NCBI GenBank assembly: GCA_947646415.1
Contig: CANSGN010000003.1
Coordinates: forward strand, 1 to 64,000
Length of the DNA stretch: 64,000 bases
Origin: an uncultured Clostridia bacterium
GTDB lineage: Bacteria; Bacillota; Clostridia; Christensenellales; UBA3700
Direction of reading: 5' to 3'
Shown here: in pieces, positions 22,976 to 64,000 of the stretch
Layout: every line of letters begins with the position of its first letter
How positions within the stretch are numbered: position 1 is the stretch's first letter
Made by a program: the position numbers and the translations under genes
Notes under the pieces: model-generated
Seen by the model: the letters and a program-made list of their open reading frames with translations, nothing else
What the model was told of the DNA's origin: nothing
Database searches by the model: none

Positions 22976-25279
22976 TTACTTTTTATCCTTTTTATTTTTG
23001 AATTTGAATATTTTAGCCTTGGTATTATATATGATTATTCCTGCTACAACCAACGCCATAACGGCTAGTACGATAAATATTGTCCACCACCAGCTACCCA
23101 CCAAATAAATGATTGTGCCTACTATGTACGACGTGCAAATCCAAAATACCAAAGTCCATTTAAATTTCTTTTTATTAGGCATTTCCGCTTTTGCTGTTGC
23201 AACCGCCGCCATACAAGGTATTGTGATCATATTAAACGCGATAAAAGCTATTAACGCAGGGATTGTAATACCGGATGCCTGTATCATAAGTGCGGTTTCC
23301 GCAATACCATCTGCTCCGCCTACTACATTTGCACCAATGCACGCCGCAAGTGTACCGAATGTTGCTACTACATTTTCCTTTGCGATAAGTCCTGTAATTG
23401 CGGATACGATAAATACCCACCCCCATTCATTAAGTTGTGAGCCAAAGCCAAGCGGTGTAAATAATGGTTGAATTAATTTACCAAAGCCTGCCAAAATGCT
23501 ATTGTTCATTTGACTGTCTTCCAAAAATTTCCAATCAAAGCTAAAGTGAGAGACAAACCATATAATTATGGTTGATGCCAAAATTATAGTAAATGCTTTT
23601 TGGATAAAGTGCTTTGCCTTATCCCACATTAAAAGCATCAAGCTTTTAAATTGTGGCAATCTGTAGTTTGGCAATTCCATTATAAACGGAGCTGCATCCC
23701 CTTTCATTGTAGTAGTTTTCATTAACACAACAGCCAATATAGCTGTTACTATGCCCACAACATACATTGAATATGTGATAATATCCGCATTGCCTATACC
23801 AAAACTCATAACTATTCCGCCTGAAATAGCTGTAAGAATAGGCAGTTTTGCTCCACAACTGAAAAACGGTATAACCCTTACGGTAGCAACTCGTTCATTT
23901 TCATCTGCAAGCGTCCTTGTATTAATCATTGCGGGTACGGAGCATCCAAAGCCCATAATCATAGGCATAAAAGCTCTGCCCGATAAACCGAATCTTCTTA
24001 AAATTCTGTCAAGTATAAACGCTACTCTTGCCATATATCCGGTATCTTCCAAAATCGAGAATAGCATTAACAGCAACAATATTTGAGGTATAAATGACAA
24101 TACTGCCGAAAGTCCGCCCAAAATACCGTCACACAAAAGTCCCGTTACCCACGCAGGACTGTTGACTAGCAGGCTTGCAACACCATCCGTTATCCAAGTC
24201 ATCAAAACTTCCATAAGCCCTTGCAGTATCGCACCTGGGGAATTAATGCCTCCCGCTCCAAAAACACCCTCGAAAGCAGTACCCGGCAGACTTACCCAAT
24301 CCTTACCTAATGCCGCACCTATAAACAAAAAATTTTCGCTAAATACCAAATGGAAAATTGCAAACAAAATAAGCAAAAACATTGGTATACCCCAAATTCT
24401 ATGTGTTAAAACTCTGTCTATTTTATCCGATTTGGTAAGTTTAGATTTATCCGTTTTGCTGTTTCTTGTTAGTGCAGTGGAATAGTTTTTGGATATGTAT
24501 TTATATCTTCCGTCCGCAATAAGTGCCTCAAAGTCTACACCGAAAATATCATCTTGAAAGGTGGATTTAAAATTGTCAATCATGCCAAGCAATGGTTTAT
24601 GTGCCGCAACTTCAAGCTCATCACTCTCCACAAGTTTTACGGCGTGGAAAAGTGGATTTTCGATATCCTGTCCTTTTAAAGCAATCGCCACATCATTAAT
24701 CAAATGGCTTAATTTAGACTGTTCAAGTACTGTAAATCCGTCTCGTTTTTGTCCTGCAATCTCATAAGCTCGGTCCATAAGCTCGGTTGTGCCTTCCCCT
24801 TTCAAAGCGGAAATCGCAACCACAGGAACGCCGATTTTTTTCTCAAGCACTGCAGCATCTATTGTGTCGCCGCTCTTTTTTACTTCGTCAATCATATTAA
24901 GCGCGATTATAACAGGCACATCGATTTCCATAATCTGCGTTGTCAAATACAAATTTCTCTCTAAATTGGTAGCATCGATAATATTAATTATACAATCGGG
25001 CTTTTCATCCAAAATGAAATTTCTTGAAACAACTTCCTCAGGTGTGTAAGGCGATAAGGAATATATGCCCGGCAAATCCACTATAGTAACGGTTTCGGGG
25101 CATTTTTTATACTCTCCCTCTCTCCTGTCAACAGTAACACCCGGCCAATTCCCCGTATGTGCAGTACTGCCTGTCAAATTATTGAACAAAGTTGTCTTAC
25201 CACAGTTAGGGTTACCAACCAATGCAAATTTTTTAGGTTTTGCTATAATCATTAGCTCATTTTTATCAAAGCTTTTCAT
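22976..25279 (-). CDS. feoB: Ferrous iron transporter B
   Basis: The 767-residue membrane GTPase takes up Fe2+. The G domain shows G1 GNPNCGKTT, G3 DLPGIYSLSPYTPEE and G4 NMIDE; two Gate regions with conserved Cys (GFGCSVPA, FFSCGAKLPI) and the C-terminal membrane segments follow. GGAGG lies 8 nt upstream of ATG 25279. The start overlaps the feoA stop by 14 bp, so translation is coupled. Confidence 0.95.
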   Translation of the reverse strand: MKSFDKNELMIIAKPKKFALVGNPNCGKTTLFNNLTGSTAHTGNWPGVTVDRREGEYKKCPETVTIVDLPGIYSLSPYTPEEVVSRNFILDEKPDCIINIIDATNLERNLYLTTQIMEIDVPVIIALNMIDEVKKSGDTIDAAVLEKKIGVPVVAISALKGEGTTELMDRAYEIAGQKRDGFTVLEQSKLSHLINDVAIALKGQDIENPLFHAVKLVESDELEVAAHKPLLGMIDNFKSTFQDDIFGVDFEALIADGRYKYISKNYSTALTRNSKTDKSKLTKSDKIDRVLTHRIWGIPMFLLILFAIFHLVFSENFLFIGAALGKDWVSLPGTAFEGVFGAGGINSPGAILQGLMEVLMTWITDGVASLLVNSPAWVTGLLCDGILGGLSAVLSFIPQILLLLMLFSILEDTGYMARVAFILDRILRRFGLSGRAFMPMIMGFGCSVPAMINTRTLADENERVATVRVIPFFSCGAKLPILTAISGGIVMSFGIGNADIITYSMYVVGIVTAILAVVLMKTTTMKGDAAPFIMELPNYRLPQFKSLMLLMWDKAKHFIQKAFTIILASTIIIWFVSHFSFDWKFLEDSQMNNSILAGFGKLIQPLFTPLGFGSQLNEWGWVFIVSAITGLIAKENVVATFGTLAACIGANVVGGADGIAETALMIQASGITIPALIAFIAFNMITIPCMAAVATAKAEMPNKKKFKWTLVFWICTSYIVGTIIYLVGSWWWTIFIVLAVMALVVAGIIIYNTKAKIFKFKNKKDKK

Positions 25280-25508
25280 CGATAACCTCCAAAGTGATGC
25301 AAGATGCTTCGTCTTTTCTTAATGTAAGCTCGTAACTGCGAATATTTATTTCCAAAGGGTCGCCAAGAGGTGCTTTTTTTCGCATTAGCACTTCTGCCCC
25401 GGGAGTTACCCCCATATCAAAAAGTCTGCGTCTAACCTTGCCCTCGCCGACAACTTTTACGATAGTTCCCCTTTCTCCTATTTTAAATTCACTCAATTTC
25501 TTTTGCAT
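25266..25508 (-). CDS. feoA: FeoA-domain protein, second copy
   Basis: The protein has 80 residues and an SH3-like FeoA fold. It has GERGTIVKVVGEGKVRRRLFDMG and VTPGAEVLMRKKAPLGDP, the standard FeoA blocks. The start at 25508 has GGAG 7 nt upstream; the longer frame to 25583 overlaps the preceding feoA and lacks family similarity in its first 25 residues. It probably modulates FeoB. Confidence 0.92.
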   Translation of the reverse strand: MQKKLSEFKIGERGTIVKVVGEGKVRRRLFDMGVTPGAEVLMRKKAPLGDPLEINIRSYELTLRKDEASCITLEVIDEKL

Positions 25509-25518
25509 ACCATACTCC

Positions 25519-25731
25519 TTATGCCACAAAAATCTTTCTCGCTGTCTCAGTATCCAAAGCGATTCTGCCTTCCTTAATCTCACAAATCACATTACCACCA
25601 CTGTTGCTGATAAGCTTGATTTTTGAGCCAACAATAATTCCCAAATCTTCAAGATGCCTTTTTATATCTTGATTTGCTACAATTTTTAATACCATAAGTT
25701 CAGTATCTACAGGTGCTAAAACTATCGGCAT
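25519..25731 (-). CDS. FeoA-domain protein, first copy
   Basis: The 70-residue protein has a shorter FeoA-like SH3 fold (IKRHLEDLGIIVGSKIKLISNSGG). It begins behind a perfect AGGAGG and is the first gene in feoA-feoA-feoB-Cys-rich. Double feoA genes are common in Clostridia. The promoter lies at 25846-25874 and the dyad at 25786-25805 sits in the leader. Confidence 0.9.
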   Translation of the reverse strand: MPIVLAPVDTELMVLKIVANQDIKRHLEDLGIIVGSKIKLISNSGGNVICEIKEGRIALDTETARKIFVA

Positions 25732-25785: not shown

Positions 25786-25805
25786 TAGTTCGCCAAGGCG
25801 AACTA
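25786..25805. promoter_or_regulatory. GTTCGCC dyad in the feo leader
   Basis: TAGTTCGCCAAGGCGAACTA is a 9-2-9 inverted repeat. It lies about 34-53 nt downstream of the predicted feo transcription start and 55 bp upstream of the first feoA start. Three related sites occur upstream of the ygbA-ABC-ECF operon. It is most simply an operator for an iron-responsive repressor. As RNA the same bases could form an 8-bp stem with a CUUG loop. Confidence 0.7.
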
Positions 25806-56176: not shown

Positions 56177-57598
56177 CTATATTATTTTATCCGAAAAATA
56201 TTTTTTTACAAATGATTTATCTCCTTGATTTTTAATAACGCCATTTTCAATTAGTATTGCCCTATCACACAATGCTTCAGCACATCTCATATCATGAGTA
56301 ATTGTAATCATTGTATTTCCGCTCTTGTTATGTAATTCATTTAAAATGCTTACCAATTCACACAAACCATTATAATCCTGTCCAACTGTCGGCTCATCTA
56401 AAAAAAGTACTTTCGGAGTTCCTGCAACAACTGCTGCTATAGACACTCTACGTTTTTGACCTTCCGAAAGCGATTGTGGATGTCTGTTTTTTATATGTTC
56501 TAAGCCAAACATTTTAATAATCTCATTAGCATATTCCATGCTTATTGCATTAAAAGCTACTTCTTTTTCCACTGTTGGCATAAATAGTTGATAGTTTGGA
56601 TTTTGATACACGATGCCAATATCATTAAACCATTTTTTTCCGTGATAGTTATTTTTAAACCTAGGGTTAATCATTTGCTCAATATTTCCACCTGTTGGTT
56701 TATTTAATCTTGAAAGCAATCTTAGCATTGTTGTCTTACCTGAGCCATTTTCTCCAAGCAGCAATAAACGTTCTCCTTTGTAAATATCAAAATTTATATC
56801 AGTTAATAATTCTTTGTTTTTTATTGAAAATGCAAGATGATTAACTTGAAATAATTTTTTATTTTGCTTACAATTTATTGATGTATCGTTTATTTTTATT
56901 GCCTGAGATTGCAAATATTCTTGCTTATTATCTACTTTTTCTACTTTACCTGAACAAATATTCCAAACATTATCCACAAATGGCAGTACCATATCTAAAC
57001 GATGTTCCACCACTAAAACAGCATATCCTGCTTTTGCTAATGCCTGCATAGTACCCATTAAAAGATTTGCACTTATTACATCCAAATTAGCAAGTGGCTC
57101 ATCAAGTACAAGTATTTTTTGACCTGTCGCAAGCGCCGATGCAGTGATTAGCCTTTGTTTTTCGCCCCCAGAAAGCGAATGTGTTTGCGCCTTTTTATCA
57201 AGCTCCACTATAGTACAAACTCTATCAATCTGTTTACTTATTTTATCTGCAGGTATAGCAAAATTCTCACAACCAAATGCAATTTCATCTTCGACTATTT
57301 TATGTATTATTTGATTATCAGCGTTTTGTAAAACTATACCAACCTTGTGGCAAACTTGTGCCATTTTTTCTCCTTTAATTGATTTGCCATCAATCAAAAC
57401 TTCTCCACTAATTACTCCCGGAATTATATTGGGTATGATTCCGGAAATTATTGAGATAAGAGTGCTTTTGCCTTCTCCTGAAAAACCTGAAAGTAACGCA
57501 ATTTCGCCATAATCCACATGAAAATCGATATTATTTAATACTTTTGTATTAAAACCACTATATGTAAAACATACATTTTTTAATTCTATAGCTTTCAT
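56177..57598 (-). CDS. Duplicated ECF/ABC ATPase (EcfA-type, two domains)
   Basis: The 473-residue protein carries two nucleotide-binding domains in one chain. The first (1-235) has Walker A SGFSGEGKST, signature LSGGEKQRL and DEPLANLD; the second (247-473) has GENGSGKTT, LSEGQKRRV and DEPTVGQD. It energises an energy-coupling-factor importer with the T and S proteins encoded just upstream, as in SiaFGH-type or other Trep_Strep systems. It is last in the operon and overlaps ecfT by 4 bp. Confidence 0.9.
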   Translation of the reverse strand: MKAIELKNVCFTYSGFNTKVLNNIDFHVDYGEIALLSGFSGEGKSTLISIISGIIPNIIPGVISGEVLIDGKSIKGEKMAQVCHKVGIVLQNADNQIIHKIVEDEIAFGCENFAIPADKISKQIDRVCTIVELDKKAQTHSLSGGEKQRLITASALATGQKILVLDEPLANLDVISANLLMGTMQALAKAGYAVLVVEHRLDMVLPFVDNVWNICSGKVEKVDNKQEYLQSQAIKINDTSINCKQNKKLFQVNHLAFSIKNKELLTDINFDIYKGERLLLLGENGSGKTTMLRLLSRLNKPTGGNIEQMINPRFKNNYHGKKWFNDIGIVYQNPNYQLFMPTVEKEVAFNAISMEYANEIIKMFGLEHIKNRHPQSLSEGQKRRVSIAAVVAGTPKVLFLDEPTVGQDYNGLCELVSILNELHNKSGNTMITITHDMRCAEALCDRAILIENGVIKNQGDKSFVKKYFSDKII

Positions 57599-58272
57599 AA
57601 AACCACCATTAAAACAATACTTACAACAAATCCTAATAAATACATAACATCTAAAATATTAATTGTTTCCTTTTTATAAATTGTATATTTGCTTTTTCCA
57701 CTTGTAAAACCACGTGTTTCAACCGAAAGAGAAAGAGTATCCGAAATATCAACTATTCTTGTCACTAATGGAATCAAAAATGCACGATAAAATATTTTAA
57801 GATTTAATAAACTCCCCGCACCACGAGTTTTCATAGCTTCACGGACACGCTTGATTTCTACTTTTAATACAGGTATAAAAGACATTGTAATAAGCATTCC
57901 TAAAGTTATGTAACGCGGCACTTTTATCTGTGACAAATTTCTAGTCATTGCTACAGCTTGTATACTTGTGCTAGGTACTATTGCAAGAAAAACAGTTCCA
58001 AAGCGATTTAACATTGAGATTGCTGCTGACAAATTTCTACCCATAGTAAAGTATGCAATAATTGCAAAAAATCCACCAAATAAAATAAAAACTATTAAAA
58101 GTTTATAAAGCTGCTTATAGCAACCAAAAAGTATTAACCATAAAGTAGCTCCTATTAAAAAATAAGAACATTGTATTTTTGTTGACATGACTAGTCCAAA
58201 TACCATAATAATCAATGTAGAAATCAACGCAACAATAGGATTTAAATTTTTCTTATATTGTAAAAAACTCAT
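57595..58272 (-). CDS. ECF transporter T component
   Basis: The 225-residue membrane protein has about five or six membrane segments and the two coupling motifs typical of EcfT: AMKTRGAGS (near 143) and SVETRGFTS (near 192), which contact the ATPase pair. It overlaps the S component by 1 bp and the ATPase by 4 bp. No N-terminal signal is needed. Confidence 0.88.
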   Translation of the reverse strand: MSFLQYKKNLNPIVALISTLIIMVFGLVMSTKIQCSYFLIGATLWLILFGCYKQLYKLLIVFILFGGFFAIIAYFTMGRNLSAAISMLNRFGTVFLAIVPSTSIQAVAMTRNLSQIKVPRYITLGMLITMSFIPVLKVEIKRVREAMKTRGAGSLLNLKIFYRAFLIPLVTRIVDISDTLSLSVETRGFTSGKSKYTIYKKETINILDVMYLLGFVVSIVLMVVL

Positions 58273-58943
58273 TATTTCAACTTACCTGCCTTTTTTAATT
58301 CTTTGGCTACAACCATACCTATTACCGAGCCAATAAAACACACGACCATTACAGCTAATGTCATTCCTATAATCACGCCAACATTATTGGCTCCTATAAA
58401 CATTGATACTGCAGATTTTTCGTTACCACTTACCGTATAAAACACATTGTAGTACATATATAAAAGCGGTATAGTCATTGGCATATATAATGTACCGGCA
58501 AACACACATGCCCAATCGTTTTTATAACCTCTAAAAACCAATAAAACCGATATTTCTATTACCAAAGCACAAGCAATTAATAACATCATAGGCGGGAACA
58601 TAAAAACTAAAAATATAGATATAAATATTGATTGCAAGACCAATGCAAACGGTTTTCTGACTTTCATCATTCCAATAACAGGGAACAAAGAAAATTGAAT
58701 ACCTAGTCCTAACTGAATAATTCCAAACAATGGCACACTCGTAAGAAGTGGCATTATAGCGCCCGTTACAAGAGTGCACGCTGTAATTATAGCAAGAAAA
58801 ACTATATCTTTAATTTTATATTTTTGAAAAATCTTATTTGAACTTTTTTTCTCATCGGAAACACTTGTTGCAAGTAACTCAACATTGTTTTCTTCTTTAA
58901 AAAAATTGACAAGTTCTGCTATTGCCTTTTCTCTTGGGGTCAT
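58272..58943 (-). CDS. ECF transporter S component (Trep_Strep/MptD-like)
   Basis: This 223-residue protein starts MTPREKAIAELVNFF with a soluble helix, then has six membrane segments (LVTGAIMPLLTSVPLFG, GIQFSLFPVIGMM, and so on). The pattern fits the Trep_Strep family of substrate-capture S components. In Streptococcus pyogenes a related ECF system (SiaFGH) takes up heme. Substrate here is inferred from the operon, not from residues. It overlaps the CydC-like gene by 4 bp. Confidence 0.82.
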   Translation of the reverse strand: MTPREKAIAELVNFFKEENNVELLATSVSDEKKSSNKIFQKYKIKDIVFLAIITACTLVTGAIMPLLTSVPLFGIIQLGLGIQFSLFPVIGMMKVRKPFALVLQSIFISIFLVFMFPPMMLLIACALVIEISVLLVFRGYKNDWACVFAGTLYMPMTIPLLYMYYNVFYTVSGNEKSAVSMFIGANNVGVIIGMTLAVMVVCFIGSVIGMVVAKELKKAGKLK

Positions 58944-60703
58944 GCTTTTATCTCCTTCACCAAACCATTTTCTACTTTATATATTCTATCTGCTATCGCC
59001 ATAGTAGATTCACGATGTGACACCAATATTATACTTTTTTTATTTTTCTGTTCTTTCAAAGCTTTTAAAATTATTCCTTCGTTTATGCTATCCACATTAC
59101 TAGTTGGCTCATCCAAAAGGATAAGTTCTGCACCTTTTAAAAACGCTCTGGCTAGTCCAATACGTTGTTTTTCGCCTGCAGATAAATTGTCTCCAAAAGA
59201 GCCGACCTTTGTTTGATAGCCTTCAGGCAATGTCATTATAAAATCATGAATAGATGCCATTTCACAAGCATTTTTTATTTGCTCATAAGTAGCAGTAGGT
59301 TTTGCAATCCGTAAATTATATTCAATGCTTTCGTTAAATAAATAAGTATTTTGGCTAACCATTGTAACAAAGTCGAGCAGATTTTCAGAATTTATTTTGT
59401 CAATATCAATCCCATTGTATGCAATAATACCTTTCTCTTTTTGCCAAAATCTTAGTAATAATTTTAAAAAAGTTGATTTTCCGGAGCCACTTTCTCCAAT
59501 AATTCCAACAATCTCCCCTTTTTCTGCACTCATTTTTATATCCTTAAGTACTTCTAATTTATTATCATAAGAAAATGATAGTCCATTTACATTCAATTTT
59601 TCATATTCAAGACTTTTACCATATTTTATTTCTTCTACAACAGGCTTTTCTTCTAATAAATTTATAATTCTATCGCCACTTGCAAACGTTTGAGTTAAAT
59701 TGCCGGGTAATGCAGATAATGCAATAACAGGGCCAAAAGAGCTAAATACAGTAACCATGCCTATTATCATTTTACCAATAGAAAGTATATTAAAATAAAC
59801 CAACACAATTCCAACAACTAGTGTAATAATGATAAATAAAGATACAAAAAATTCAGTTATTGCAGTTGCATTTGTAATACTGTGTTTCATTTTCCTTGTT
59901 TCACTAAGCAATAATTCACTGCGTCGATTTACCTCTGTTTCTCTTTCTGCACCTGCATTATTAAAAACAATATCTTTAATTCCTTTTATGCTATCTAGGA
60001 AATATCCATTGAATGAAGCAAATTCTCCACGATATTTACCCCCGCTTTCTTTTATTTTTCGTGATAAAACCAAAGGCAAAGCAATACCAATAACTATGTA
60101 TCCTAATACGGCTACTAACGCAATATACCAACTTGAGATAATTCCAACAGATATTGTTACAGATATTGAAACTAATACGGCAATACAAATAGGAGATATT
60201 GTATGTGCATAAAAAACTTCCAAAGTTTCAATATCGGATGTAATCATTGCTATAATATTTCCTTTTTGCTTACTTTCAAGTTTTGCTGGACATAATACCC
60301 TAAGTGCTCCAAATATTTTATCTCTCAAAACTGCCAAAAGCTTAAACGCGATATAGTGGTTGCTGTACTGTTCAAAGTAACGCAATATACCACGCAATAC
60401 ACCACAGCCTATAACTATCCCAATTATAAGTCCATAAGACATTGTAATTGTTTCCCCTATTATCTTTGCAATGCCTATTGCACCAAAAACTGTTACTCCC
60501 ATAGCACAAATAAATCCGAAGCTACCATTTATTACCGCCAAAATCATTATATATCCCAAAGAGCCAAGTAATAGTATTAGGTTTGCCATTATTTTTGCAC
60601 CACTTCTACGCTTTACATTGTTTATTGTAGGGATACTTTTATCATTATTAATATTGTACTGCTTACTACTATGACTATTTTCTTTTAAACTCTTGCTAAT
60701 CAT
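58940..60703 (-). CDS. ABC exporter subunit, CydC-like
   Basis: The 587-residue half-transporter has six membrane segments (residues 35-320) and a nucleotide-binding domain: Walker A GESGSGKST, Q-loop VSQNTYLFN, signature LSAGEKQRIGLARAF and Walker B ELILLDEPTS. The segment LESKQKGNIIAMITSDIETLEVFYA resembles the CydC N-terminal domain. It probably pairs with the CydD-like protein encoded just upstream. The substrate could be a heme, tetrapyrrole, thiol or siderophore. It overlaps both neighbours by 4 bp. Confidence 0.87.
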   Translation of the reverse strand: MISKSLKENSHSSKQYNINNDKSIPTINNVKRRSGAKIMANLILLLGSLGYIMILAVINGSFGFICAMGVTVFGAIGIAKIIGETITMSYGLIIGIVIGCGVLRGILRYFEQYSNHYIAFKLLAVLRDKIFGALRVLCPAKLESKQKGNIIAMITSDIETLEVFYAHTISPICIAVLVSISVTISVGIISSWYIALVAVLGYIVIGIALPLVLSRKIKESGGKYRGEFASFNGYFLDSIKGIKDIVFNNAGAERETEVNRRSELLLSETRKMKHSITNATAITEFFVSLFIIITLVVGIVLVYFNILSIGKMIIGMVTVFSSFGPVIALSALPGNLTQTFASGDRIINLLEEKPVVEEIKYGKSLEYEKLNVNGLSFSYDNKLEVLKDIKMSAEKGEIVGIIGESGSGKSTFLKLLLRFWQKEKGIIAYNGIDIDKINSENLLDFVTMVSQNTYLFNESIEYNLRIAKPTATYEQIKNACEMASIHDFIMTLPEGYQTKVGSFGDNLSAGEKQRIGLARAFLKGAELILLDEPTSNVDSINEGIILKALKEQKNKKSIILVSHRESTMAIADRIYKVENGLVKEIKA

Positions 60704-62415
60704 ACATACCCCTCCTCTAACTCTTTTTGTGTTGAATATAATTTTTCATAACCATTTTTATTTGACATCAAGGCAGCATGCGTTCCATATTCTTTTATTT
60801 GTCCATTTTCCATAAAATAAATATTATCTGCACTAACTACGTTTGCTAACCTATGTGATATTACAATAACGCTTTTATCTTTGGATAATGCTTTTATATT
60901 TTGCATTATAATCGCTTCACTTTCGATATCTATATTACTAGTTGCTTCATCAAAAATATAAATATCTTTGTTAGCTACCAAATTAACTGCAAGTGCAAGC
61001 CGCTGCTTTTGTCCACCGGAAATATTCCCTCCGTCTTCGGATATTATTTTATCTAATCCACCATTATTTTTTATAAATTCATCAAGATTTACAAGCTTTA
61101 ATGCATCAAAAATCTGCTCATCTGTTGCACTGCTATTTGCAATTAAAAAATTGTCCCTTACAGTTTGGTTAAAAATATATGTATTATAACTTACAACCGA
61201 TAAATGCGAATAATAATTGTCGCGGGAAAGATTTTCTAATGGCACATTTCCGATGGTTATGCTACCACTTTTTGGACGTAGTGCTCCAACAATAATATTG
61301 ACTATTGTGCTCTTCCCAGAGCCACTTTCTCCAACTATAGCTGTCATACCTTTTTTAGGAAAATTCATATCAATACCTTTCAATATATCACGTTTGCCAT
61401 CATAAGAAAAAGTAACATTATTTAATGTGATAGTTGTTTCGCTAACTTCTTGAATTCCCCATATAGGGTCAGTAGTGTTTAGAAGTGCAATTATTTTTTT
61501 GCCTGCGCTTGCTCCGTTCATAGCAATATGAAATGCAGAGCCAAACGCACGAAGCGGCAAGAAAAATTCTACTGCAACTAATATCAAAAATAGCGAATAT
61601 ATAGGATTTAATCCCCAATATAATACACCGCAAATACTAAGTGCAATTCCTGCTCCGGCACCACCAAAAGCAACCAAATCCATAATAGTAGTACTTGCAA
61701 GTTGCATGACTAATACTTTCATAGTTATTTTACGAAATTCTTCAGAACTTTCATTCATTTTGTCATGTCCGGCTTTGTCAGCTTTAAAAATCTTTAATTC
61801 TTTTAGCCCTTGTACATTATCCAAAAATTTGTCTCCCATCGAAGTATATTTATCCCAATATTTTGCAAATATTTTTTTTGCATATTTAGATACAATGATA
61901 ATTGAAACAGGTATCAATGGTACGCAAGCAATTAATACCAAAGATGTACGCCAATCTATCCAAACACACATAATAAAAAGCGCAATCGGAGCTAAAAGTG
62001 CAAAAAAGAATTGTGGTAAATAACTTGAATAGTATAAATCTAGCTGTTCTACACCCTCTAAACTTATTTGAGTTAAGCCCGCCATACTCATGCCATCAGT
62101 TGAATTTACACCCAATTTCACGATTTTATTATATGTACGCTCACGCAAATCTTTTTTAACTTTCCTACCAATAGTATCCTTAACATCTCCAATTAATTTT
62201 GTAGTACAAAAACGTATGATAATTCCAATAACTATAAATGCAAGCGGATACAAAAATAAAAACCATTGTGCTTTTATAGTTACTAAATAAATTGCATAGC
62301 AAATGCTTGCAGTTATACCAATATTTGCAACAAGTCCGAGTAATTGAAATGCAACAACACTAAATATATATTTTTTGTTCTTGCCTAAAAGTTGAAATAA
62401 ATCTTTATCTATCAT
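60700..62415 (-). CDS. ABC exporter subunit, CydD-like
   Basis: The 571-residue half-transporter has membrane segments at about 17-290 and an ATPase with GESGSGKST, signature ISGGQKQRLALAV and DIYIFDEATSN. GVEQLDLYYSSYLPQFFFAL and WRTSLVLIACVPLIPVSI closely follow the CydD block that reads GVEALExYxxRYLPQ...LTAPLIP. Together with the next gene it makes a CydDC-like heterodimer. Heme transport by CydDC has been described; that link is from literature memory. It overlaps ygbA by 4 bp. Confidence 0.87.
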   Translation of the reverse strand: MIDKDLFQLLGKNKKYIFSVVAFQLLGLVANIGITASICYAIYLVTIKAQWFLFLYPLAFIVIGIIIRFCTTKLIGDVKDTIGRKVKKDLRERTYNKIVKLGVNSTDGMSMAGLTQISLEGVEQLDLYYSSYLPQFFFALLAPIALFIMCVWIDWRTSLVLIACVPLIPVSIIIVSKYAKKIFAKYWDKYTSMGDKFLDNVQGLKELKIFKADKAGHDKMNESSEEFRKITMKVLVMQLASTTIMDLVAFGGAGAGIALSICGVLYWGLNPIYSLFLILVAVEFFLPLRAFGSAFHIAMNGASAGKKIIALLNTTDPIWGIQEVSETTITLNNVTFSYDGKRDILKGIDMNFPKKGMTAIVGESGSGKSTIVNIIVGALRPKSGSITIGNVPLENLSRDNYYSHLSVVSYNTYIFNQTVRDNFLIANSSATDEQIFDALKLVNLDEFIKNNGGLDKIISEDGGNISGGQKQRLALAVNLVANKDIYIFDEATSNIDIESEAIIMQNIKALSKDKSVIVISHRLANVVSADNIYFMENGQIKEYGTHAALMSNKNGYEKLYSTQKELEEGYV

Positions 62416-62780
62416 TTTATTTTATCTCCTTTTGATTTTTTATGCTTTATCATTTGTATTACATGAGAAAGTGAGAATAACGGATGCGAAAACAACATCC
62501 GTATACCGGCGTAATTCATAACTGCTTTAACTTTATTTCTCATTTCGGGTTTATAACAGTGCACATTACAAAATGAACAAATTTTTTTATTTTTTTTAAA
62601 AGGACATTTTTCTAGTCGAAATAATGCATATTCAATGAGTTCCTTACATTCTGTACACGTATCATTTCCCTTTACTCCTTGTCGTTTTCTCTCAATCTTA
62701 TGATTACCTTTACAATACATTATTATCATTATAGGGATTAATTTTTTTTCTTTTTCCCATGACCTTAATTCATTTTTCAT
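62412..62780 (-). CDS. YgbA-type Cys-rich protein (PF11756, NO-responsive family)
   Basis: The 122-residue protein has seven cysteines in family positions: C23, C42-x2-C45, C59, C68-x2-C71 and C75 (CSFCNVHCY), followed by MRNKVKAVMNYAGIRMLFSHP. This fits YgbA, the NsrR-regulated protein of nitrosative-stress regulons in Enterobacteria. It may bind a metal or iron-sulfur cluster. It heads the six-gene operon and lies just after the operators, consistent with an iron or NO input. Confidence 0.82.
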   Translation of the reverse strand: MKNELRSWEKEKKLIPIMIIMYCKGNHKIERKRQGVKGNDTCTECKELIEYALFRLEKCPFKKNKKICSFCNVHCYKPEMRNKVKAVMNYAGIRMLFSHPLFSLSHVIQMIKHKKSKGDKIK

Positions 62781-62833: not shown

Positions 62834-62849
62834 GTTCGCTATAGCGAAC
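62834..62849. promoter_or_regulatory. GTTCGC dyad, copy b (leader of ygbA operon)
   Basis: GTTCGCTATAGCGAAC is a perfect 16-bp palindrome. It lies about 123 nt downstream of the predicted start of transcription and 54 bp upstream of the ygbA start codon. Confidence 0.7.
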
Positions 62850-62921: not shown

Positions 62922-62937
62922 GTTAGCCACGGCGAAC
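62922..62937. promoter_or_regulatory. GTTAGCC dyad, copy c (degenerate)
   Basis: GTTAGCC-AC-GGCGAAC has one mismatch (A for C) from the perfect form. It lies about 35-50 nt downstream of the predicted start site, the same relation as the site in the feo leader. Confidence 0.6.
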
Positions 62938-62978: not shown

Positions 62979-63007
62979 ATATTATAGTAAATTGTAAATT
63001 TTGTCAA
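62979..63007 (-). promoter_or_regulatory. Promoter of the ygbA-ABC-ECF operon
   Basis: TTGACA (63007-63002), 17 bp, TAATAT (62984-62979) on the minus strand. It is flanked by dyad copy d upstream of the -35 and dyad c downstream of the start. Confidence 0.8.
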
Positions 63008-63013
63008 CTATTT

Positions 63014-63029
63014 GTTCGCCATTGCGAAC
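63014..63029. promoter_or_regulatory. GTTCGCC dyad, copy d
   Basis: GTTCGCC-AT-TGCGAAC has one mismatch in the second arm. Its edge is 7 bp upstream of the ygbA -35, so an RNA-only role is excluded for this copy; DNA binding is the natural reading. It is also about 155 bp upstream of the gdhA promoter. Confidence 0.65.

Positions 63030-63142: not shown

Positions 63143-64000
<858 letters not shown>

Follow-up and report, generated by a model that had tools for sequence, protein, structure and literature searches.

An energy-coupling factor (ECF) transporter of group A Streptococcus (GAS) is said to import haem, in work ascribed to Chatterjee in 2020. Haem import by a transporter of this type is established for LhaSTA of S. 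lugdunensis (PMC7299338), and a C. perfringens haem operon, cht, has the order chtD-chtE-srt-chtA-chtB-chtC1-chtC2-chtC3 (PMC5026354). In the equibactin locus, iron uptake with equibactin requires the ECF-like importer EqbHIJ and not the adjoining exporters EqbKL (PMC3672683). Here, we describe a six-gene operon in a 64,000-nucleotide stretch of DNA (hereafter the window; contig CANSGN010000003.1, positions 1 to 64,000, assembly GCA_947646415.1) from an uncultured Clostridia bacterium. The operon, at positions 56177-62780, combines an ECF importer with a pair of CydDC-like half-transporters, ABC1 and ABC2, and with YgbA (Table 1). We read it, with a probability of about 0.7, as an iron-repressed haem-acquisition operon, because its relatives encode lipoproteins with a NEAT fold, the same exporter pair occurs in haem operons, the axial haem histidines of the pair are conserved, and the operon shares a dyad with the feo genes. 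On the best reading, the ECF module performs the import that FecBCD-type proteins perform in related loci.

Each of the described systems resembles the window operon in part. The two ECF haem transporters are of the same type, and neither is described with YgbA or a CydDC-like pair. The cht operon is likewise an iron-regulated haem operon and ends with permease/ATPase fusions (chtC2 and chtC3) that, going by their description, are of the same kind and in the same place as ABC1 and ABC2; it differs in its importer, composed of a substrate-binding protein (SBP), a permease and an ATPase, in having NEAT proteins and a sortase, and in being preceded by a Fur box instead of the dyad. In the equibactin locus, two exporter-fold genes adjoin an ECF-like importer, with a link to iron and a DtxR-like regulator (PMC3672683); this locus differs as a siderophore biosynthesis cluster for which no YgbA is described. 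A preliminary description of the window had regarded its union of two opposite transporter classes with YgbA as unusual. EqbHIJ-KL, an ECF importer beside two exporters, is a precedent for part of that claim, and iron-linked DtxR control was already known as well; the exporters of equibactin-like sets, however, belong to another clade (see below). Judged by open-access full text, the novelty appears to lie in a conserved operon that unites an ECF importer with YgbA and a sister family of CydDC, and in the broader association of YgbA and these exporters with haem loci.

The six genes occupy the minus strand and overlap by 4, 4, 4, 1 and 4 bases (junctions ATGA, ATGA, ATGA, TAATG and ATGA), with every open reading frame where the preliminary description had placed it. 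Profile searches also agreed with that description for YgbA, which exceeds the PF11756 gathering score of 25 and has seven cysteines, and for the ATPase, with its two ABC domains in a single chain; in the two half-transporters, Pfam recognised ABC exporter folds. The ATPase scores slightly below cut-off for TIGR04521 and TIGR04520; its two ABC_tran domains and the CbiQ-family T component, all found with Pfam, are those expected of an ECF transporter. The S component had been assigned to Trep_Strep, and 14 of the 16 members of its family alignment match this family at E<0.01, yet its own PF09605 score remains below the gathering cut-off, and a search of NCBIfam returned no model, TIGR02185 included. 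An alignment search with the S protein found no relative of solved structure, and an Rfam search of the window matched no RNA family.

A scan with the S protein gathered 42 related loci from metagenome bins labelled Clostridia, Bacilli, Mollicutes and Spirochaetes, labels that may hold errors. The region upstream of ABC1 was readable in 33 of these, and YgbA lies within the operon in 31 (upstream in 30, downstream in L029; L027 and L043 show none). Six-gene relatives are retained at S protein identities as low as 42%, and a gene order kept at about 40% identity argues against a chance arrangement.

Twelve of these relatives encode a protein with a NEAT/Shp-like domain. In ten, a lipoprotein gene carrying this domain sits between ygbA and ABC1, and in L043 and L044 the domain belongs to a membrane-anchored protein encoded upstream. 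Pfam matches of the lipoprotein to NEAT and Shp are below cut-off. The AlphaFold model of the L021 lipoprotein (predicted local distance difference test, pLDDT, of about 93 for the domain) has Shp (2q7a) as its top Foldseek match (E 3e-6), and the best 45 chains in a VIA comparison are all NEAT or haem-surface proteins (Z 11.4-6.0, the first other fold scoring 5.6). Shp ligates haem through two methionines. Since the lipoprotein family also keeps two methionines invariant (M74 and M146 in L021), a similar ligation may be proposed by analogy.

The exporter pair leads to haem from another side. In a sample of 391 genomes of the class, members of the same exporter family were found in haem operons. 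One genome, G298, encodes NEAT, Shp (1e-53), SBP, FecCD, ATPase, DtxR, ABC1, ABC2, YgbA and DUF454 proteins (L075 and L177); this haem operon has the exporter family and YgbA in common with the window and a DtxR gene of its own, and differs by a FecBCD-type importer in place of the ECF components and by the presence of surface haem proteins. Another locus (L096) combines SBP, NEAT (6e-21), sortase, ABC1, ABC2 and YgbA, and in L156 and L170 Shp proteins accompany the pair. Of the 20 genomes with NEAT, 18 also have a CydD-profile match of at least 350 bits (Fisher p 1.7e-20), as do 13 of the 26 with YgbA (p 3e-9); these p values overstate independence because the genomes are related. The NEAT match lies at most 10 kb from a CydD-like match in nine of these genomes (G207, G211, G226, G245, G295, G298, G315, G333 and G390).

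The likeness of the pair to CydD and CydC, as first proposed, stood as kinship and not as identity. CydD and CydC are the closest NCBIfam models of ABC1 and ABC2, respectively, but both equivalog cut-offs were missed (Table 1). In a tree in which the window sequences alone represent the six-gene ECF operon clade, ABC1 is sister to CydD (99/92 support) and ABC2 to CydC (99/95). Exporters of equibactin-like sets, represented by L148, L149 and L151, form a clade of their own (100/99), a split more certain than the exact sister relations because the references are long branches. Together, sister placement and missed cut-offs indicate a sister family of CydDC, and not CydDC itself. Classification by phmmer against the PDB was rejected: P-glycoproteins topped the ranking because they carry two halves per chain, and the tree was used instead.

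In CydDC structures, the axial haem ligands are CydC H85 and CydD H312 (PMC10374445). The latter aligns with His296 of ABC1, invariant in all 45 family members, and the former with His116 of ABC2, invariant in all 48; MsbA, MdlA and MdlB lack both counterparts. Another residue of the CydC pocket, R77, is nearly always retained in the ABC2 family. E. coli CydDC resembles the window pair as a heterodimer with the D gene before the C gene and with both axial histidines (PMC10374445, PMC13337084). It differs in several other pocket residues and in serving cytochrome bd, for which a PF01654 search gave no match in the host genome and matches in 10 of 14 control genomes, so that the window pair does not serve that oxidase. 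By analogy with CydDC, the pair would most simply export haem, porphyrin or a thiol.

The dyad supports a link of the operon to iron, as the preliminary description had proposed. Its consensus is the palindrome GTTCGCnnnnGCGAAC, and a scan of the whole genome (1.73 Mb, at most one mismatch) found sites only before ygbA (three) and before feoAB (one). This count is not above chance, since reversing the pattern as a control yields five sites in the genome, and only the location of the dyads is informative. Among relatives, the 700 bp that precede ygbA hold dyads with up to two mismatches at about tenfold the density seen elsewhere (17 in 19.3 kb, compared with 34 in 404 kb). Several relatives have a DtxR-family gene close to the operon; in seven of them, the repressor encoded on the operon-bearing stretch shares 54-60% identity with L110, the DtxR-family protein of the host. 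An iron-dependent repressor of this type probably acts at the dyads; YgbA had been suggested to sense the metal, a part that more likely falls to the DtxR-family repressor.

Table 1. Features of the haem-acquisition operon candidate and of its associated sites in the window
Feature	Position	Strand	Remarks
ygbA, first gene of the operon, 122 aa, 7 Cys	62412..62780	-	PF11756, 127 bits
ABC1, CydD-like half-transporter, 571 aa	60700..62415	-	TIGR02857, 384 bits (cut-off 435)
ABC2, CydC-like half-transporter, 587 aa	58940..60703	-	TIGR02868, 292 bits (cut-off 329)
ECF S component, weakly Trep_Strep-like, 223 aa	58272..58943	-	PF09605, 22.7 bits (cut-off 28.7)
ECF T component, CbiQ family, 225 aa	57595..58272	-	PF02361, 44.8 bits
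ECF ATPase, two ABC domains in a single chain, 473 aa	56177..57598	-	PF00005 twice
Dyad GTTCGCTATAGCGAAC	62834..62849		perfect; 54 bp before the ygbA start codon
Dyad GTTAGCCACGGCGAAC	62922..62937		one mismatch; before ygbA
Promoter-like TTGACA-17-TAATAT for ygbA	62979..63007	-	predicted; 10/12 consensus matches
Dyad GTTCGCCATTGCGAAC	63014..63029		perfect; directly upstream of the -35, abutting the promoter-like site
Dyad GTTCGCCAAGGCGAAC	25788..25803		perfect; 57 bp before feoA
feoA-feoA-feoB, ferrous iron uptake operon	22976..25731	-	FeoA and FeoB identified by inspecting the sequence

Two further observations concern the dyads. Loci L039 and L046, from contigs of metagenome-assembled genomes labelled Spirochaetes, each hold five tandem perfect copies of the consensus, 62-101 bp apart (L039:10783-11098 and L046:10852-11167), in the interval from the ECF ATPase gene to an unrelated gene of TPR type that follows. 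In the window, a gene identified by sequence inspection as encoding glutamate dehydrogenase (63251-64000, plus strand) is divergent from ygbA, with its start 470 bp away, and could therefore also be influenced by the dyad cluster.

A mechanism can be proposed on these grounds. Under iron shortage, the DtxR-family repressor would leave the dyads and the six proteins would be made together with FeoAB. The ECF S-T-A complex would bind haem at the cell surface and import it, receiving it in some relatives from the NEAT lipoprotein. The CydDC-like pair would bind haem through its two conserved histidines and would most likely serve as a safety or redox valve that exports haem, iron-free porphyrin or a thiol reductant. 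YgbA, a helical protein rich in cysteine and histidine, may handle iron or haem in the cytosol. If so, an ECF module can substitute for a FecBCD-type haem importer within one conserved gene set of uncultured gut Clostridia. Moreover, haem-uptake loci with a sister family of CydDC, in organisms possibly devoid of cytochrome bd (as found for one), would uncouple the handling of haem from the assembly of the oxidase, a point of relevance to the debate over the cargo of CydDC.

Several points weigh against this haem-acquisition reading. The S protein is not demonstrably a relative of LhaS, no invariant histidine was detected in it, and haem is proposed as its ligand from the neighbouring genes and not from its own sequence. 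A Pfam NEAT search of the host genome gave no match, as was also the case for 14 control genomes, and the alignment of the relatives' lipoproteins retrieved from the host genome low-score matches alone, mostly to the signal-peptide end; the NEAT or Shp surface protein that marks Isd/Cht-type systems was thus not found there. In the exporter pair, the CydC pocket is changed throughout ABC2 (R81 to Q, H132 to V, R136 to H), with the second histidine displaced by one helix turn, and F247 of CydD is a leucine in ABC1. The cargo of E. coli CydDC is itself debated between haem and thiols. Older work favours thiols; haem export is backed by recent work (PMC13337084). Finally, YgbA also adjoins nitric oxide (NO) detoxification genes in loci without haem genes.

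This last point bears on the possibility that the transcript combines two independent functions: import of haem by the ECF genes, and export of thiols by YgbA and the CydDC-like pair as a module against nitrosative or redox stress. YgbA belongs to the NsrR regulon (PMC5320621) and adjoins hybrid cluster protein Hcp in L083, where a hemerythrin-like gene is also present, and a flavodiiron-type protein in L085, which places it in an NO-stress context outside enterobacteria. It is present in 26 of the 391 genomes and, the window excluded, adjoins exporters of the same family in loci that lack an ECF module in 11 of these 26, so the pair and YgbA form a separable module. The preliminary description had considered that exporters and ECF genes found apart in unrelated loci would speak against their link; such loci do occur, and several of them are haem or iron loci. 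Haem loci hold exporter pairs both with and without YgbA, and neither axial histidine has been lost from the pair, which makes two unconnected functions unlikely. Import of a metallophore (siderophore), with the exporter pair taking part in import or in siderophore efflux, appears less probable still. EqbHIJ is a model for it, and similar five-gene sets, one with a DtxR gene, exist in the class (L148, L149 and L151). Their exporters, however, form the separate clade described above, apart from a window pair that is sister to CydDC, and it is NEAT/Shp haem proteins that relatives of the window operon carry. The most doubtful proposal is that the cargo, in place of haem iron, is a different tetrapyrrole or a precursor of haem (protoporphyrin, coproporphyrin or a cobalamin-like compound): related porphyrins can fit NEAT and CydDC pockets, gallium-, zinc- and cobalt-porphyrin NEAT structures are among the matches of the L021 model and the T protein belongs to a cobalt-transport family, but the dyad common to feo and the adjacent DtxR repressors indicate iron as the reason for uptake.

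Returning to haem acquisition, the place of YgbA in such an operon can be considered from its residues. An alignment of 29 family members shows C23, C42, C45, C59, C68, C71, C75, H27, H74 and H106 to be invariant, and E. coli YgbA has four of the cysteines in common with the window protein; a metal or haem ligand is likely. The predicted model is helical (pLDDT 80) and found no match in the PDB, and no fold is claimed. One tentative and rather speculative scheme casts YgbA as a cytosolic haem or iron acceptor that receives haem from the importer and assists in freeing the iron, with leftover porphyrin or surplus haem expelled by the CydDC-like pair. The NO-linked enterobacterial YgbA would then be a related protein that shares this chemistry. 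Open-access papers describe YgbA as an NO-responsive gene and assign it no biochemical function, and their full text contained no passage linking it to haem transport; its conserved place in a haem operon suggests what to assay.

A gene for a DUF454 membrane protein (YbaN family, PF04304) repeatedly adjoins YgbA or the CydDC-like pair (L075, L076, L082, L084, L086, L088, L089, L156, L160, L163-L165 and L170), an assignment confirmed by Pfam in L086 and made by likeness in the remaining loci. It looks like a further member of the haem/iron module.

Haem loci of the class also have other neighbours. Proteins of about 280 amino acids (aa), with a winged-helix DNA-binding N-terminus, a NEAT-like C-terminus and no obvious signal peptide, are encoded at L177:10729-11574(-), L178:16878-17717(-) and L156:540-1373(+), with related ones at L157:4480-5316, L170:11536-12369 and L180:8656-9513. 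Three of the six match Pfam NEAT at E values of about 2e-4 to 4e-4, below cut-off. Judging from this domain order, they would be intracellular NEAT haem sensors fused to a regulator. Large surface-type proteins with FMN_bind domains occur in L156 (1610-4321, plus strand) and L157 (2433-4217, minus strand), the latter with a NEAT domain, and are possible surface haem reductases.

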